A program made the translations under genes and the position numbers. 64,000 nt of DNA from Methylobacillus sp. MM3 (GTDB lineage Bacteria; Pseudomonadota; Gammaproteobacteria; Burkholderiales; Methylophilaceae). The notes under the pieces were generated by a model. It had not been told where the DNA came from, made no database searches, and worked only from the letters and a program-made list of their open reading frames with translations. The DNA lies in the NCBI RefSeq assembly GCF_001645185.1, contig NZ_LXTQ01000030.1:62001-126000 (forward strand), read 5' to 3'. Of the stretch, positions 31,285-58,005 are shown piece after piece (the first letter of the stretch is position 1; every line of letters starts with the position of its first letter).

Positions 31285-31470
31285 TCTTGCGGTGTCTCCG
31301 GCGAGGGGTGGTAAATGGCTAGTTTGCCATCAAGCGCACGCTTTAGGGCGTCCGCTTGACTGAATTGCTGGCTGCAGGCAAGTGAAGCTTGCCGGATGAT
31401 GTCAGCCAAATGGAAGATTAGTCGGCTGTTCGATCAATGAAATGGCCGGCCATGGCTGAGCCCTTGAGCG

Positions 31471-49000: not shown

Positions 49001-49078
49001 ACTTCCAGTCATGCAGGGCGGATAATCGCAGCGTTATCTACTCTACGGAAAAAACCGTAACGTCAGGAACAACAACCC

Positions 49079-49462
49079 ATGTCCAATATTCCAGCCGATC
49101 TCAAATACGCCAAAACCCATGAGTGGTCACGCCTGGAGGCTGATGGCACAGTCACCGTCGGCATCACCGATCATGCGCAATATCTGCTCGGCGACCTGGT
49201 GTTCATCGAGCTGCCGGAACCCGGAAAGCAAGTAAGCGCAGGCAAGGAAATCGCCGTTGTCGAATCGGTGAAAGCGGCCTCGGATATCTACGCGCCGCTT
49301 TCCGGCACGATCAGTGCAGTCAATCAGGATGCCGCCGACATGCCGGAACGAGTGAATAATGATGCCTACGCTACCTGGCTGTTCAAGATACAGCCGGACA
49401 ACGCGGCAGACCTCGACCAGTTGCTCGATGCGGCCGGCTACCAACAGGAAATCGGCGAATAG
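49079..49462 (+). CDS. gcvH: Glycine cleavage system H protein
   Basis: 127 residues, the usual length. The lipoyl-lysine is in [17 protein letters not shown]; the N-terminal [10 protein letters not shown]-like start and a C-terminal WLFKIQPDN complete the hammerhead-like fold. It shuttles the aminomethyl group between P, T and L proteins. The 282 bases to gcvPA hold structured element B. Confidence 0.96.
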
Positions 49463-49469
49463 TAGCCTA

Positions 49470-49739
49470 GAGAGCCTGTTTCAGCAGGAAACGACTGATG
49501 CGATATGACACAAAGGCGATGGATGCAAGGCGCACCGCGCAGCCAATGGCCGCCCATTGGCAAGCGGTGCAACGCCGCAGACGCGCTTTTGTGTCATACC
49601 CCGGAGGGGCAGCACTGCCTTGCGCGCAGAGCGTTGTTGCTCGCCACTTATTTGGAATAACCAAACCGCGCGGCTCACGCCTAGCTCTTCACGCAAGGCA
49701 GTGCTGTCGCACAGCCGTTTCCTGCTGAAACAGGCTCTC
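49470..49739 (+). repeat. Structured ~270-bp repeat element, copy B (upstream of gcvPA)
   Basis: Perfect 24-bp inverted ends (49470-49493 with 49716-49739) starting GAGAGCCTG. Arm 1 is a 15-bp stem at 49504-49518/49584-49598 with one G-T wobble. Within it are GCACCGC/GCGGTGC (49532-49538/49564-49570) and GCCAATGG/CCATTGGC (49542-49549/49554-49561). Arm 2 is a perfect 15-bp stem at 49610-49624/49692-49706, after a CCCCGGAGGGG junction. The same fold appears in copy A at 15523-15793 with different paired sequences. It starts 7 bases after gcvH and ends 5 before gcvPA. Confidence 0.85.
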
Positions 49740-49744
49740 CATCG

Positions 49745-51112
49745 ATGCCGTTCATTCCGCACACGCCTGACGACATCGCCCAAATGCTCAGCGCGATCGG
49801 CGTCGAGCGCATCGCCGATCTTTTCGATGAAATCCCTGCCGAGCTGCTGAACGGCGATCTCGGCGCAATTCCACCCGGCCTCAATGAAATGCAGGTCACG
49901 CGCCTGATGCAGGAGCGCGCCGCCTATGACGGCGGACAGCTCAGCTTCATCGGCGCGGGAGCCTACGAACATCACATCCCCGCTGCCGTCTGGCAGATTG
50001 CGACGCGCGGCGAATTCTATTCCGCCTATACGCCCTATCAGGCCGAAGCCAGCCAAGGCACGCTGCAGCTGCTGTACGAATGGCAGACGATGATGGCTTC
50101 GCTCACCGGCATGGAGGTTTCCAATGCTAGTTTGTACGACGGCGCGAGCGCAGTAGCCGAGGCGGTGCTGATGGCGGTCCGCGTCAACAAGGCCGGCGTG
50201 CATCGCGTGCTGGTGCCGGCGAATCTCCATCCACTCTATCGCGCGGCATTGCGCACCCTGCTCTCGCCGCAGAAAATCGCCATTGCCGAGATCGCATTCG
50301 ACCCCGCCACCGGCCGCATCGACCAGACCGCACTGGAAGCCGCCGGCCACGAGCCTTTCGCGGCGCTGATAATCAACCAGCCCAATTTCTTCGGCGTGCT
50401 GGAATCGCCCGATGCGCTGATCAACTGGGCACACGACAAGGGTGCGCTGGTCGTCGGCGTATCCAATCCACTCGCGCTGGCGCTAATCAAACCGCCCGGC
50501 GAATGGGGAGCAGGCGGCGCCGATATCGCCTGCGGCGAGGCGCAGCCGTTCGGCATTCCGCTGACCAGCGGCGGGCCCTATGTGGGGTATCTCTGCTGCA
50601 AGCAAAGCCTGGTGCGCCAGATGCCCGGGCGCCTGGTCGGGCGCACGGTCGACCTCGACGGCAAGCCCGGTTTCACGCTGACACTGCAGGCGCGGGAACA
50701 GCACATCCGCCGCGCCAAGGCCACCTCCAACATCTGCACCAATCAGGGCTTGATGGTTACGGCAGCCACCATCCATCTCGCATTGCTAGGCGCGCAAGGC
50801 ATCGAAGCAGTGGCAGCAGCCAGCCATGACAATACCCGAGTCTTAATCGACAAGCTCACTGCCATACACGGCATAGCGCGCATTTTCGACGCGCCGTACT
50901 TTCATGAGGCGGCGATTCGCCTGCCTTGTCCTGTGGCGCCGGTTCTGGAAAAACTGCGTCAGCACAATATCCTCGGCGGCCTCGATCTGGCCCCGTACTA
51001 CCCCGACCTCGGCAATGCGCTTCTGGTCTGCACCACCGAAACCAAGACCGAGGATGACCTAAACATCTACGCCGATATTCTCCGCTCGGTGCTGGAGGAG
51101 CTGGCATGCTGA
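49745..51112 (+). CDS. gcvPA: Glycine dehydrogenase (decarboxylating) subunit 1
   Basis: 455 residues: [47 protein letters not shown] and [23 protein letters not shown] are characteristic of the alpha half of split P protein. The PLP lysine is in the beta subunit. Structured element B lies immediately before the ATG and no strong Shine-Dalgarno is visible. The stop overlaps gcvPB by seven bases. Confidence 0.96.
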
Positions 51113-52548
51113 TCTTTGAACATTCACGCCACGGACGCGCCAACGCGGCGCAGCTCGCATCCAGGCAGCATGTATCCGATCTTCCGGAAGAGTTGCGCCG
51201 CACCTCGCGGCCATTGCTGCCGGAAGTCTCCGAACTCGACGCGGTGCGGCATTACACGCGCTTGAGCCAGCAGAATTTTTCCATCGACACGCACTTCTAC
51301 CCGCTCGGCTCGTGCACGATGAAATACAACCCGCGCGCGGCCAATGCGCTGGCGATGCTGCCGGGTTTTATCGGACGCCATCCGCTGGCACCTGACGACA
51401 CCGGACAAGGTTACCTTGCTTGTCTGTGGGAATTGCAGGAAATGCTCGCCGAAGTGACCGGCATGGCCGCCGTCAGCCTGGCACCGATGGCCGGCGCACA
51501 GGGCGAATTGGCGGGCATCGCGATGATCCACGCCTATCATGCGGCTCGCAACGACACTGCACGCAACGAAATCATCGTGCCAGACGCCGCGCACGGCACC
51601 AACCCGGCGACCGCGACGATGTGCGGCTACAACATCCGCGAAATCCCCACCGATGCCAACGGCGACGTCGACCTCGAAGCGCTGAAGGCCACCTGCGGAC
51701 CGCAGACAGCCGGGCTAATGCTGACCAATCCTTCCACCTTGGGCGTGTTCGAACGCAGCATCGGCGAAATCGCGCGCATCATGCACCAGGCCGGTGGCCT
51801 GCTGTATTACGACGGCGCCAACCTCAATGCGATCCTGGGCAAGGTGAAACCCGGCGACATGGGTTTCGACGTCATCCACATGAATCTGCACAAGACCTTC
51901 TCCACGCCGCACGGCGGCGGCGGGCCGGGCGCAGGCGCGGTCGGCGTGAGCAAGCGGCTGGAACCTTTCCTGCCGGTGCCGGTGGTCGCGCGCGAAGAAA
52001 ATCATTACCGCTGGCTCACGGAAAAAGACCGGCCGCAAAGCATCGGCCGGCTATCGGCCTTCATGGGCAATGCCGGCGTGCTGTTGCGCGCCTATGTATA
52101 CGCCCGTATGCTGGGCCGCACCGGCATGCAGCGCGTTGCGGAATTCGCCGCGCTCAATGCCAATTACCTGATGGACCGCCTGCGCGCATCCGGCTTCGAA
52201 CTGGCCTTCCCCACGCGCCGCGCCAGCCATGAGTTCATTATCACGTTGCAAAAGCTGAAGGAAGAAACCGGCGTCAGTGCGATGGACGTCGCCAAGCGTC
52301 TGCTGGACAAGGGCTTTCACGCCCCCACCGCCTACTTCCCCTTGCTGGTGCCGGAATGCCTGTTGATCGAGCCGACCGAAACCGAGTCGAAGGAAACGCT
52401 GGATGCCTTTGTGGAAGCCATGCGTGAGATCATGGCAGAAGCCCGCACCGTTCCCGATTTACTCAAAACGGCACCGCACACTATGCCGGTATGCCGCCTG
52501 GATGACGTCAAGGCCGCGCGCGAGCCGGATCTGGTATGGAAGGCCTAG
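51106..52548 (+). CDS. gcvPB: Glycine dehydrogenase (decarboxylating) subunit 2
   Basis: 480 residues. The PLP lysine lies in [33 protein letters not shown] and [22 protein letters not shown] are P-protein signatures. With gcvPA it decarboxylates glycine and transfers the aminomethyl group to lipoyl-GcvH. Its ATG lies inside the end of gcvPA. The glycine cleavage L protein (lipoamide dehydrogenase) is not in this window. Confidence 0.97.
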
Positions 52549-52581
52549 CACCCACGCTCCAGTTTCCCGGGCACTCCTTCC

Positions 52582-52652
52582 GTAGCGCAGGCGTTCCCGC
52601 CTGTATCCCCCCGATCCTCATGGTTTGTTGCAGGCGAGGACGCCTGCGCTAC
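52582..52652. repeat. 71-bp palindromic repeat, family 2, copy 2
   Basis: GTAGCGCAGGCGT ... and ... ACGCCTGCGCTAC arms as at 40011-40081, with two mismatches in the left arm. It has the same length as copy 1. It lies between gcvPB and the acylphosphatase gene. Confidence 0.8.
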
Positions 52653-52666
52653 AAAGTCTGCGCCGT

Positions 52667-52963
52667 ATGAGTCAGCAAGGCAGCATCCTTATAGCCAAAC
52701 TGCTGCGCATCCACGGCCAAGTGCAAGGTGTTGGTTACCGCGAGTCGATGCGGCGTGAAGCGGAGCGATTACATTTGTACGGCTGGGTACGCAACCGCCG
52801 CGACGGCACGGTAGAAGCGTTGGTCTGCGGTGAAGCCAACCAAGTCGAACGGATCGTGGAATGGGTCAAACAGGGGCCGCGCTTTGCCACAGTGGACCGG
52901 GTGGAAATAAGCGAGGCTGAAATCACGACCAGCGGCAGGTTTGAAATAGTATTCACCGAATGA
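52667..52963 (+). CDS. acyP: Acylphosphatase
   Basis: 98 residues from the ATG at 52667. The signature RIHGQVQGVGYRESMRREAERLHLYGWVRNRRDGTVEAL is complete, with the catalytic Arg in GYRESM and the Asn in WVRNR. It hydrolyses acyl phosphates in the cytosol. Preceded by the 71-bp repeat, with no clear Shine-Dalgarno; followed by an integron-type core site 17 bases after its stop. Confidence 0.92.
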   Translation: MSQQGSILIAKLLRIHGQVQGVGYRESMRREAERLHLYGWVRNRRDGTVEALVCGEANQVERIVEWVKQGPRFATVDRVEISEAEITTSGRFEIVFTE

Positions 52964-53002
52964 TTGGATGCCTACTTCATGTTAGGCAGACAAGGATCAT
53001 CA

Positions 53003-53329
53003 ATGACCATAGTTGAATCTGAGAAGCGGCAGAAGCTTGCTCTTGAAGCTATCAAACAAGCGTTTGGTACGGAATCCGGCGAAGACAACGTCAATTTGTT
53101 TGTCGAGCATCACATCGAGGAACTTCCGCAGAACTACTGGCAACAATATCTTGGCGGTGACACGCCAGAACCCGCGGCAGTAGTCGACCTGCTTCAACTT
53201 CGCTCGTCTTGGGGTCAAAACGACATCGAATACTTTGACTTCACTCTCCCCGGTGAGGTGACCGACTACGTCGTCTCGGTGCATTTCGATAGTTCAGGCG
53301 ATGTTGATGGCGTATCGATGGAGAGCTGA
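53003..53329 (+). CDS. DUF2004-like cassette protein
   Basis: 108 residues from the ATG at 53003, which has AAGGA seven bases upstream inside the cassette. A helical N-terminus (KRQKLALEAIKQAFGTESG) is followed by VDLLQLRSSWGQNDIEYFDFTLPGEVTDYVVSVHFD and GDVDGVSMES, resembling the C-terminal strands of DUF2004. Function unknown. Flanked by integron recombination sites. Confidence 0.7.
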   Translation: MTIVESEKRQKLALEAIKQAFGTESGEDNVNLFVEHHIEELPQNYWQQYLGGDTPEPAAVVDLLQLRSSWGQNDIEYFDFTLPGEVTDYVVSVHFDSSGDVDGVSMES

Positions 53330-53340
53330 CGTGCAATATC

Positions 53341-53404
53341 TGCCTAACAACTCCTTGCAGCGAACCGCCTTCGGCGGCCGCAAAAGTCAGGCGTAAGCGG
53401 CACA
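53341..53404 (+). repeat. attC-like recombination site, degenerate 3' core
   Basis: The left core GCCTAAC (53342-53348) and a central CCGCC-TTC-GGCGG hairpin (53365-53377) fit integron attC layout. TTGCAGCG and the CGC segment flank the hairpin. The expected right core GTTAGGC is replaced by GTAAGCG (about 53393-53399), so the site is probably inactive. Confidence 0.7.
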
Positions 53405-53406
53405 CC

Positions 53407-53861
53407 ATGCCTCCGCGATACTTCATAGCCCTACTGGCCGTTTTCCTGATCGGCGTCACCATTGGCGGCTACGTTTTCTCGCGCAGCCTGCCCCGATCAT
53501 TTCTGACGATAACCGAATGTGAGCAGCAATGCTTGCGCCCAAGTGAGCTGGCCGGCTTATTGGTTTCTGCCGGCATACAGCGCATGCCAGCCGCACTTCC
53601 GCGAGTCGAGTACGAATCGGACAAATGCATCGCCATTGCCCATCCATCGCCTCAAACCCGTATCCATCTCGTACTTTTCCCGAAGCGGGACATCAAGAAT
53701 ATTGGCGCCTTGTCGGTCGGCGATGCGCCCTACGTGCTGGATTGCTTTGCCATGGTTCGCGAGATCAGCCAACGCACCCAGATAAACACTATCGGCTACT
53801 CACCAATGGCCCGGCACGTCAGCATGTGGCGTATCTGCATTTCCATTTCATGGCAAGGTAA
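53407..53861 (+). pseudogene. HIT-domain protein gene, frameshifted
   Basis: The first part (53407 to about 53785) encodes an N-terminal membrane helix (YFIALLAVFLIGVTIGGYVF) and HIT-like strands (CIAIAHPSPQTRIHLVLFPK, then DAPYVLDCFAMVREI). The HIT C-terminus, HYRLLTNGPARQHVAYLHFHFMAR, appears in another frame and ends at the TAA at 53861. The break falls near 53786, in AGATAAACACTATC, as if one base were missing. A sequencing error or a genuine loss would both explain it. The middle and last His of HxHxH remain; the first is Tyr. Confidence 0.75.
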
Positions 53862-53948
53862 GAGGCGCAAAGCGCAATACCACGCAAGCCGAAATCGGTT
53901 TTATACTGATTGCTCGGGGTTACCCTTGATTGCATGGAGGTTGTCGGC

Positions 53949-56030
53949 ATGGCTACCACCCGCATTCCGCTGGATCGCGTACGCAACATCGGCATCATCG
54001 CGCACATCGATGCGGGGAAAACCACGGTCACCGAGCGCATCCTGTTTTATACCGGACGCACCCATCATATCGGCTCGGTGGACGACGGCAACACGGTCAC
54101 CGACTGGATGGCGCAGGAGCGCGAGCGCGGCATCACCATCGTATCGGCCGCCATCACCACCGACTGGCGCGACCATCGCATCAACCTGATCGACACCCCC
54201 GGCCACATTGACTTCACCGCCGAAGTACAGCGCTCGCTGCGCGTGCTGGACGGCGGCATCGTGGTATTCGATGCAGTGCATGGCGTAGAACCGCAGAGCG
54301 AAACAGTGTGGCGGCAGGCGGATCGCTTTCGCGTGCCACGCATTTGCCTCGTCAACAAGATGGACCGGCCCGGCGCCGATTTCGACCATGCGCTGCAAAC
54401 GATAGAACAGCGCCTTGGGGCGAACGCCGTGGCGGTGCAGCTGCCCATTGGCCGCGAACGCGAATTCGAGGGTGTGATCGACCTGCTGCGCATGCAGGCC
54501 ATCTACTGGCCGGAGGAAAGCGGCGTGCAGCCGGAAATCCGCGACATTCCAGATGCCTATCGCGAGGCAGCGGAAGCCGCGTGGACGAGATTAATCGAAA
54601 AAGTCGCCGAAACCGACGACGCGCTGCTCGAGCTCTACCTGCAAGGCGAGACACCGACCACCGAGCAGCTCATTGCCGCGCTGCGTAGCGCCACCATTGC
54701 AAACAACCTGTTTCCGGTATTCTGCGGCGCGGCCTTGCGCAACAAGGGCATCCAGCCGGTGCTGGACGGCATCATCGACTACCTGCCTTCGCCGCTGGAT
54801 ATCGGACAGGTCGCCGTAACCGACCCCGCTACCCACGCTGAAACCTTCCGCCAGCCGGACGATGACGAACCCTTGGCAGCGCTAGTGTTCAAGATCGTGC
54901 GCGACCCGTATGTCGGCCATCTGACTTACTTCCGGGTTTATTCCGGACGGCTGCATTCCGGCCAGCAGGTTTATAACGCCACGCGCGACCGCCCGGAACG
55001 TATCGGCCGGCTGGTGCGCATGTATGCCGACCGCCGTGAGGACATCGAGGAAGTGCACGCGGGCGACATCGTCGCAGCGCTGGGCATGAAAACGGCGCAG
55101 ACCGGCGATACGCTGTGCGCCCCGGAACAGCCGGTGCTGCTGGAGCGCATCGCCTTCCCCGAGCCGGTGATCCGTGTCTCGGTCGAACCGAAAACCAGCG
55201 CCGACCAGGACAAGCTCACCGACGCATTGCGCTATCTGGCGGAAGAAGACCCGACATTCAAGGTGACGGTGGACGAAGACACCGGCCAGACCATCATGGC
55301 CGGCATGGGCGAACTGCACCTGGAAATCCTCGCCGACCGCATCAAGCGCGAATACGGCGTGCAGGCCAACCTCGGCCGACCGCGTGTGGCTTACCGCGAA
55401 ACCATCACGAAAGCGGTGCCCAAGGTGGAGGGACGCTACATCCGCCAGACCGGTGGGCACGGCCAGTATGGCCACGTGGTCGTGGAACTGCGTCCGGCCG
55501 AGCCGGGGACCGGCATCCGCTTCGAAAACGCGATCACCGGCGGCGCCATCCCGCGCGAATTCATCCCCGCCATCGAACAGGGCTTCATCGAGGCGGCCGA
55601 AAACGGTGCCGTGGCGGGCTATCCGGCTACGGACATGACGATACGCCTCGTTGACGGCTCCACCCACCACGTCGACTCCAGCGAGATCGCCTATCGGAAC
55701 GCTGCCATCGCCGCCTTCCGGGAAGGCATGCCGCAGGGCGCGCCCATTCTGCTCGAACCGTATTCCAGGATCGAAATCGTGGTGCCGTCCGAATACCAGG
55801 GCGCCGTTGCCGCGCAGTTATCCGCCCGACGTTGCGAAATCGAAAACTCGGAATCCCGACCCGGCGGCGTGCAAGCGATACGCGGCATGGCGCCTCTGGC
55901 AGAAATGTTCGGCTACGCCACAGATTTGCGCTCCGCCACGCAGGGGCGCGGGCTGTTTACGCTGGAATTCGACCACTACGCGCCGGTGCCGACGACGGTG
56001 GCGAAAGAGGTATTGGCAGGAAGGCTGTAA
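53949..56030 (+). CDS. fusA: Elongation factor G paralogue
   Basis: 693 residues from the ATG at 53949, with GGAGG about nine bases upstream. G1 [16 protein letters not shown]2 region [14 protein letters not shown]3 DTPGHIDF and G4 NKMDRPG are intact. Domains II-V follow, with [13 protein letters not shown] in domain IV and a C-terminal [16 protein letters not shown]. It translocates tRNAs or acts in ribosome recycling. Lying outside a str operon and being diverged, it is probably a second EF-G copy. The main copy is not in the window. Confidence 0.93.
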
Positions 56031-56055
56031 CGCAGGCGAGACCGCCTGCTCCCGG
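56027..56055. repeat. Half-copy of palindromic repeat family 2
   Basis: GTAACGCAGGCGAGACCGCC resembles one arm of the 71-bp repeats and overlaps the fusA stop codon. The matching second arm is missing. GCAGGCG-AGAC-CGCCTGC forms a short hairpin. Confidence 0.5.
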
Positions 56056-56093
56056 TTTTACAATCAAGAACAACGACAAGGGAGAAATACATC

Positions 56094-57545
56094 ATGAGAA
56101 CCATATCGAGCTCACGCTCATGCATGTTAATCGCCGCAGCACTGCTTCTTGCCTCCTGCGACCGGCAGACGCCCCAGGCTGACCCCTACGATCAGAGCAA
56201 AATGGATCTGCATCTAGTGCCGGCCAAGTTAACGGACGAGCGTCATCAAGGCGCCTTCGCGGAAGGCAATGCGCTGAGCATGGGCGCGGAACTCAAGCCG
56301 CTCGACCCCGCGCCGGTCAAAACAATTCGGCTGGACACCACACACAAGATCATTGACATCGCGCCGGGCGTGAAATTCAGCGCCTGGACCTTCGGCGACC
56401 AGGTACCGGCGCCGACCATACGCGCACGTGTCGGCGACAAGATCAAATTCAGCATGAGCAATCGCAGCGACGAGCCGGTGCCCGGCGTGCAGTTGACGGC
56501 GGCGCCGATGATGCATTCCATGGATTTCCACGCAGCCATGGTCTCTCCGCAGGACAAATACCGCTCCATCGCCCCCGGGCAGACCATTGAGTTCGAATTC
56601 ACGCTCAACTATCCGGGCATTTTCATGTACCACTGCGGCACGCCGATGATCCTGGAGCATATTGCCTCGGGCATGTATGGCGCCTTGGTGGTCGAGCCGC
56701 GTGACGGCTATCCGACCAAGGTCAACCGCGAATACGTGATTATCCAGAGCGAGTTCTACGCCAAGCCCGACCCTTCCGGGCGCAAGGTCGATACTGCGCC
56801 GCTTTATGTGCTGGACGGCGACCGTTTGCGCGTCTCGCAGCCGACCCATATCGTGTTCAACGGCACCCACAACGGCATGGTGAAGCACCCCCTGCCGGCC
56901 AAGCCCGGCGAGCGCGTCCGTCTGTATGTGCTCAATGTCGGCCCCAGCAAGACCTCCAGCTTTCATGTCGTCGGCACCATCTTCGACCGCGTCTGGATCG
57001 AAGGCAATCCGGACAACCAGTTTCGCGGCATGCAGACGGTACTGCTCGGTTCTTCCAATAGCGCCGTCGTTGAATTCGTGATCCCCGAAGAAGGCTCCTA
57101 CATCATGGTCGACCACCATTTCGCCAATGCCTCGCAAGGCGCAATCGGGCTCATCTCCACCACAGCTGCGGCTCAGGAGAAAGACATCGAACACCATAAT
57201 ATTCCGGCCTCGGCCACCCCCACCGATCCGGACGCGGCGCAGGGCAAGCTCGACTTCGAAAGCAAGTGCCTCGCCTGCCATACGGTGGGCGGTGGCGACA
57301 AAGTCGGCCCCGATCTCGCCGGCGTTACAAAGCGACGCAGTGACGACTGGCTCGCCCGCTGGCTCAAGGAGCCCGAAAAAATGCTGGAGATCGATGCCGA
57401 CGCCAAAGCCATGCTGAAGCAATTCAACAACCTGCCGATGCCCAACCAGAACCTGACCGACAAGGAAATCAGCCGGTACATCCAGTACTTCCACTGGATA
57501 GATACACAACCGGCGGGCACAGCCAAAATTGCGGAGACGCATTGA
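56094..57545 (+). CDS. nirK: Copper nitrite reductase with fused cytochrome c domain (NirK-type)
   Basis: 483 residues. A lipoprotein signal ends LLLASC. Two cupredoxin domains follow: MMHSMDFHAAM supplies a type 1 His, the catalytic Asp and a type 2 His; MYHCGTPMILEHIASGM gives the type 2 His and type 1 Cys, His and Met; and SSFHVVG the third type 2 His. A C-terminal cytochrome c domain has CLACHTVGGGDKVG and an axial Met in LPMPNQNL. It reduces nitrite to NO at the periplasmic face, with the heme feeding the copper sites. Coupled to the small gene at 57542. Confidence 0.9.
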   Translation: MRTISSSRSCMLIAAALLLASCDRQTPQADPYDQSKMDLHLVPAKLTDERHQGAFAEGNALSMGAELKPLDPAPVKTIRLDTTHKIIDIAPGVKFSAWTFGDQVPAPTIRARVGDKIKFSMSNRSDEPVPGVQLTAAPMMHSMDFHAAMVSPQDKYRSIAPGQTIEFEFTLNYPGIFMYHCGTPMILEHIASGMYGALVVEPRDGYPTKVNREYVIIQSEFYAKPDPSGRKVDTAPLYVLDGDRLRVSQPTHIVFNGTHNGMVKHPLPAKPGERVRLYVLNVGPSKTSSFHVVGTIFDRVWIEGNPDNQFRGMQTVLLGSSNSAVVEFVIPEEGSYIMVDHHFANASQGAIGLISTTAAAQEKDIEHHNIPASATPTDPDAAQGKLDFESKCLACHTVGGGDKVGPDLAGVTKRRSDDWLARWLKEPEKMLEIDADAKAMLKQFNNLPMPNQNLTDKEISRYIQYFHWIDTQPAGTAKIAETH

Positions 57546-57964
57546 GCATCTTCACGCCCTTTGCCGCTCTTCTGATGCTGGCCCTGCACAGCACTGCCAT
57601 CCTCGCCTGTGGCCACTGCGTCGAGGACAAGATCGCAGCGGTGTACGACCATGCCAATGTGATGCAGGCGCTGGAACGAAAACACCCTATCGCCTTCTTC
57701 GCCATCGACGGACCTCTTGCCGATGGCACCGGGCGGACGCTGGAAACGCTTGCAGAATCGGTTACCGGCGTGGACAAGGGCAGCACACGCGTTTCGATGG
57801 AGTCCGCGGCGATGGCCGTGGCCTTCAATCCCGAGCGAACAACTTTCGCGAAAGTGCAAAAAGCGCTGGAACGAAAATTCAGCGGCAAGAAATTGACGTT
57901 GCAACCATTACGCATCATGGATAAGCCGGCGCAATTGAAGCCGGCCAGCCAACGCCAGGATTGA
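57542..57964 (+). CDS. Small exported protein with N-terminal CGHC, downstream of nirK
   Basis: 140 residues from a TTG that overlaps the nirK stop (TTGA). A short signal peptide ends near ALHSTAILA, followed by CGHCVEDKIAAVYDHANV. The rest predicts a beta-alpha-beta fold with VAFNPERTTFAKVQKALERKF, suggestive of a heavy-metal-associated domain with the CxxC at its start. It could deliver or receive copper for NirK. That is inference from position and motif. Confidence 0.7.
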   Translation: MSIFTPFAALLMLALHSTAILACGHCVEDKIAAVYDHANVMQALERKHPIAFFAIDGPLADGTGRTLETLAESVTGVDKGSTRVSMESAAMAVAFNPERTTFAKVQKALERKFSGKKLTLQPLRIMDKPAQLKPASQRQD

Positions 57965-57979
57965 TTCGATAAAAAGAAA

Positions 57980-58005
57980 GGCCGCGAACCTCTCGGATCG
58001 CGGCC
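57980..58005. terminator. Terminator between nirK unit and convergent His-rich gene
   Basis: GGCCGCGA and TCGCGGCC form a perfect 8-bp stem with AAAGAAA on the left, so it can act on leftward transcripts; the rightward side is C-rich. Confidence 0.65.

Follow-up and report, generated by a model that had tools for sequence, protein, structure and literature searches.

The locus described here lies in a 64-kb window, by which we mean the whole stretch of DNA analysed, and our analysis confirms that a solitary integron gene cassette of 412 bp is present in it, flanked by acyP and a HIT-like gene (Table 1). The cassette has the composition that defines such elements, an ORF with a GTTRRRY core on its left and an attC site on its right, although the right core itself departs from GTTRRRY. 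The crossover G of its right end is at 53393, the cassette ORF is oriented in the direction of the flanking genes, and the GC content is 51.7%, as compared with about 62% in the flanking stretches. In short, the object is of an ordinary kind, a single cassette in decay next to a core of attI type, and it is the left flank that is informative.

Table 1 Features of the interval from acyP to the HIT-like gene, with positions in the window
Feature	Position	Strand	Basis or remark
acyP (acylphosphatase), intact	52667..52963	+	Pfam PF00708 (87.1 bits), alignment complete to the domain end
attI-like core, GGATGCCTACTTCAT plus crossover G	52966..52981	+	ends at crossover G; top attI profile score in window
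Left core site GTTAGGC (R box)	52981..52987	+	6/6 complementary to R''
Gene cassette, crossover to crossover	52982..53393	+	412 bp
Ribosome-binding site AAGGA	52992..52996	+	6 nt ahead of ATG 53003
Cassette ORF, 108 aa	53003..53329	+	own ribosome site
attC site, 58 nt	53342..53399	+	covariance model, plasmid cassette attC matches, alignment
R'' GCCTAAC	53342-53348	+	sequence
L''/L' hairpin CCGCC-TTC-GGCGG, loop TTC	53365-53377	+	sequence
Right core GTAAGCG, not GTTRRRY	53393-53399	+	sequence
HIT-like gene, right neighbour	53407..53931	+	PF11969, 24.1 bits

The insertion point and the cassette protein

The acyP stop codon occupies positions 52961-52963, and the C-terminus it closes has the same length as in correctly oriented homologues (those compared were L040, L043, L044, L046, L047 and L048, while L038, L039, L041, L042 and L045, taken from the wrong strand, were set aside); the attI-like core starts directly after this natural end. 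On the other side, a flank of 13 bp lies between the right junction and the HIT-like start codon, whose position agrees with the start of a homologue. That homologue begins at the equivalent of 53407, for which reason we rejected the idea that, in the empty site, the HIT-like gene had its start further upstream. Since acyP keeps its natural C-terminus and the junction falls 13 bp before the homologue-aligned start, only the cassette separates the ends of the two genes, and the gap from acyP to the HIT-like gene without it measures 31 bp.

No empty acyP-HIT site was found in any of the relatives searched, in which the HIT-like gene, acyP and gcvPB never occurred together. The HIT-like protein had one match, a weak domain match, in 59 other near relatives and none in GTDB contigs; 399 genomes of the order yielded three good homologues, whose genes have no acyP upstream, or are situated close to the end of a contig or at the limit of the stretch examined. 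No close ortholog was found in relatives for the EF-G paralogue (E limit 1e-250), nor for gcvPB in relatives (10 genomes). The stretch 49745-56030 of the window, comprising a two-gene glycine decarboxylase, acyP, the HIT-like gene and the EF-G paralogue, is without close counterparts in most of the family members searched, and this block was possibly acquired.

The HIT-like gene is itself frameshifted near 53775-53784, the match to the homologue L128 running in frame 1 as far as 53775 and resuming in frame 3 at 53784, and its histidine-triad end lies in another frame. An Rfam scan returned two tRNAs only.

The protein encoded by the cassette matched no Pfam family above cut-off, no NCBIfam entry and no PDB sequence, and no relatives were found in IMG/VR, in GTDB contigs, in 59 other genomes or in 368 other genomes. 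Its best relative is in Listeria phage records (tblastn E 2e-3, 28% identity over 105 columns), the other matches being weak, and the AlphaFold model of the 108-aa ORF is poor (mean pLDDT 49.3). The original prediction had called the product DUF2004-like. That label found no direct Pfam counterpart, the cassette protein giving no match to DUF2004 (PF09406) at E up to 10, and is connected with the family through the distant Listeria relative, which scores 16.7 bits against it, below the cut-off of 27. DUF2004 is thus a lead only.

A decayed attC site and a left core that belongs to the cassette

A covariance model of attC, whose helix covaries in the alignment, rests on 17 sites taken from plasmids and other genomes, the window and its own genome being excluded. 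The attC site of the cassette is the top match of this model in the window, with 17.0 bits (E 0.039) against 12.0 bits for the second best; genome-wide, the same site has an E value of 1.77, which is not significant. Elsewhere in the window, a weak attC-like match of 12.0 bits lies at 31317-31373 on the minus strand. Two pattern scans for attC, one strict and one looser, did not list the site of the cassette, because its right core is not GTTRRRY.

Relatives of the site are found on plasmids. A blastn search of 72,556 plasmid records with the 59-nt site as query returned an attC-like site on plasmid 1 of Polaromonas JS666 (87.5% over 40 nt, E 2e-4). Another match was the attC of aacA34, a cassette adjacent to IntI1 in pEC732_IMP14 (NZ_CP015139.1; 84.2% over 38 nt, E 0.03). 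It is the attC body, CAGCG.ACCGCCTTCGGCGGCCGC, that matches these two sites. The aacA34 attC, from a class 1 integron and associated with a different gene, has an intact L' arm and a GTTAGAT core, whereas in the window site both the L' arm and the right core have decayed and lost their pairing. Folded as bottom-strand single-stranded DNA, the window site shows no advantage over shuffled sequences (z -0.43), as against z values of -7.65 for aacA34 and -3.37 for the other of two reference attC sites. The poor fold weakens the claim of a working cassette, not that of a cassette origin, and the decay of the attC site weakens all statements on the right half of the locus.

Circularisation builds R' from the last G together with the six bases at the start of the cassette; R'' is therefore expected to agree with the left core of its own cassette, not with the right core. 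This is what array cassettes display: in 76 of them the own left core agrees with R'' at 5.67 of 6 positions on average, and completely (6/6) in 59, as compared with means of 4.59 of 6 for the right core and 4.52 for shuffled cores. These 76 come from 93 neighbouring pairs, 17 having been skipped for non-canonical ends. The input comprised 98 of 122 rows from one list, without duplicate loci and most of the weak rows, and 35 of 45 rows from a second list. The cassette of the window behaves in the same way, R'' matching the left core at 6 positions and the right core at 3. Moreover, when the cassette ends are joined the attC profile score is 21.0 bits, as against 12.6 bits for the linear site, and R' and R'' pair fully in the circular form only (-13.6 versus -10.5 kcal/mol in the linear form). 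The profile used in this comparison was made from 71 of 122 alignment rows, after removal of rows from the own genome, of duplicates and of rows that were very short or very long. The left core belongs to the cassette.

The original prediction also held that the right core had changed to GTAAGCG, which would block excision. Such a change is not required, as target DNA may account for the six bases that follow the crossover G; yet GTAAGC differs from canonical GTTAAGC by a single missing base, and decay extends to the L' arm as well.

The attI-like left flank and other clusters of the genome

Related integrons have an attI core that agrees with the 16 nt ending at the left crossover (GGATGCCTACTTCATG), and the register is exact. 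This attI-like left flank is a new element with respect to the original prediction. In 14 related integrons a common form of the core is GGATGYCTACTTTAC followed by GTTRRRY, and in the window GGATGCCTACTTCAT is followed by GTTAGGC. A profile was made from these 14 integrons, all of other, related genomes, with the core placed by the rule that left core and R'' agree; one of them fits poorly (-0.9 bits). Over both strands of the 64-kb window the profile has its maximum, 17.89 bits, exactly at the left crossover, the next value being 12.25. Among 196,364 null positions three values equal that of the window, and their coordinates identify them as the window site itself, copied in L037, L118 and L123. 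The sequence conserved further upstream in attI is not present, and acyP coding sequence is found there instead.

Four sites in the 2.96-Mb genome lie within two mismatches of the attI family consensus, and two of the four are left ends of cassette clusters, namely that of the window and C30:209255. Allowing up to three mismatches adds a third cluster left end, C50:216026; at this level there are 26 sites genome-wide versus 60 for a reversed control pattern, so the motif is not enriched.

No trace of intI was detected by hmmsearch in positions 49,001-58,000, the 9 kb around the cassette, in agreement with the earlier statement that no integrase is nearby. In the genome as a whole TIGR02249 matched five times, never above its cut-off, so that an intact integron integrase was not found in it, nor an intact intI beside attI that would make a complete integron. 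One of the five is a C-terminal intI fragment of 66 aa on contig C11 (87.9 bits). The four others, on C40, represent two longer frames of 357-358 aa, which we take to be Xer-type recombinases.

A genome-wide search for intI and further attC sites, the check that had been proposed, thus revealed an intI remnant and four other cassette clusters, both missed by the original prediction. At E up to 10, attC matches lie at C11:367.0-370.4 kb (8), C30:210.2-211.2 kb (3), C57:141.0-141.8 kb (2), C50:216.8-217.3 kb (2) and in the window (1), with a weak one on C1. Two of the four other clusters, at C30:209 kb and C50:216 kb, are headed by an attI-like sequence without a trace of intI. That on C30 (L098, G000:C30:207500-214000) lies downstream of a DNA-polymerase-I-like ORF and has its attI-like core at 1753-1771 (18.28 bits, no intI trace); that on C50 (L100, G000:C50:214500-219500) has it at 1524-1542 (13.81 bits, no intI). 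With their attI-like core at the left end and no intI trace, both clusters (C30:209-211 kb and C50:216-217.5 kb) resemble the locus between acyP and the HIT-like gene. They differ from it in having several cassettes and AT-rich sequence upstream of the core, that locus having a single cassette without AT-rich upstream sequence.

On C11 a truncated intI lies beside eight attC sites (L001 1501-1698 and L060, G000:C11:367040-370838), which is the genome's own decayed integron. The cluster on C57 (L099, G000:C57:138500-145000), with its left core near 2065, is without an attI-like flank and adjoins the 3' end of an ORF that is presumably polysaccharide-deacetylase-like; it may represent a different kind of insertion, and the C-terminus of the neighbouring ORF may have been altered by it.

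Origin of the cassette and relation to known systems

The original prediction saw either an orphan cassette that a distant integron had inserted or the remnant of a lost array, and these are the two live options. We favour the former, to which we give about an even chance. We infer that the site between acyP and the HIT-like gene was once empty, and that an integron integrase acting in trans took up a circular cassette with a folded attC bottom strand. Recombination would have occurred into double-stranded attI-like sequence in the 31-bp gap, the cut falling after the G of GGATGCCTACTTCATG. As the insert has the orientation of the flanking genes, transcripts from upstream could run through its promoterless ORF. 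The integrase gene would later have been reduced to the C-terminal fragment found elsewhere in the genome, and the decay of attC would leave the cassette now fixed in place. Against insertion in trans speaks the target triplet GTA at 53393-53395, which deviates from the published GNT unless one T was lost later. The main rival, to our mind somewhat less probable, is that the locus is the relic of a complete integron of which the attI core and the first cassette survive, deletion having removed intI, the bulk of attI and all later cassettes, with a right core that is GTTAAGC minus one T. This would suit the attI-like left flank, the decayed attC arms and the sequence GTAAGC, one base short of a canonical GTTRRRY core, which cmsearch aligns with a one-base deletion. 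It is credible because attI-headed clusters without intI exist in the same genome, those on C30 and C50, and two clusters of the genome G021 combine attI with fragments of intI. However, the 9 kb around the cassette hold no intI trace and the AT-rich attI upstream sequence of L098 and L100 is missing. Furthermore, as the attI likeness stops at the natural acyP stop and the right junction lies 13 bp before the next start, a relic would need two deletions ending within a few bases of gene ends. Insertion in trans needs fewer events and is preferred for that reason.

Our first reading was insertion at an arbitrary non-attI site (attG), the likeness of the left flank to attI being coincidental; once the attI-like character of this flank had emerged, we no longer favoured it. 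The reaction is a described one (cited in PMC12901181 and PMC12444791), and the absence of enrichment of the attI pattern in the genome would agree with coincidence. Nevertheless this explanation appears improbable, as one of only four near-matches in 2.96 Mb sits exactly at the crossover and two other cassette clusters of the genome show an attI-like core at their left end too. Least probable of all, and hardly tenable in our opinion, is a chance resemblance, that is, an ordinary small gene with a hairpin and no integron cassette. The genome-wide E value of the attC model and a hairpin no better than shuffles would fit it, but it is contradicted by the attI-like core, the core site, the self-contained ORF, the match of R'' with the left core and the known attC body, all jointly in register, and the genome is rich in such cassettes. 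The earlier claim of one integron-type cassette is borne out by the same set of elements.

As a single attC site without an integrase, the locus is of a known kind, of which it is a well-documented example, and not a new system. It resembles a SALIN, a CALIN with one attC, in having one attC, one cassette and no intI near (definition in PMC12690207; the CALIN threshold is given in PMC9024848): there is no intI in 49,001-58,000 and no second attC above 12.0 bits in the window. It differs in that its left flank is attI-like and that its attC is so decayed as to make an IntegronFinder call uncertain. Cassettes are also described as inserting at secondary sites (PMC10127599; PMC4618277), where the published sites follow GNT (PMC3518468; PMC10127599), and at attG sites (PMC12901181; PMC12444791; also among the works cited in PMC11023631). 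Insertions at secondary, attG or attI-like sites, such as aadB in RSF1010 (cited in PMC10127599), likewise consist of a single cassette at a non-integron place, with its own left core and target DNA after the crossover G. The locus departs from secondary-site insertions in its triplet, GTA and not GNT, and in a left half that is much closer to attI than required.

The favoured insertion in trans would make the locus a natural example, concrete and open to test, of a cassette spreading beyond the integron. It is conceivable, but in our judgement unlikely, that in genomes that had an integron the integrase repeatedly used pre-existing attI-like sequences outside it as extra platforms, so that CALINs and SALINs would often be satellite arrays built in trans and not integron leftovers. 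If this were true, the locus, with a single cassette in an operon gap of 31 bp, would represent the simplest form. If such pseudo-attI landing places are common, the origin of integrase-less clusters could be tested through the core in empty relatives. A simple check would serve for any lone cassette, namely whether its left core pairs with R'' and whether its left flank is attI-like.

Related genomes hold further material of this kind. In G021, whose intI is still intact, the loci L116 (C4) and L117 (C1) have cassettes headed by copies of its own attI together with intI fragments, and these are duplicated integron ends. The other genome of the genus, G001, contains no integrase over the cut-off and 20 attC matches at E up to 0.01, which are spread over contigs C13, C19, C28, C42, C45, C69, C77 and C83.
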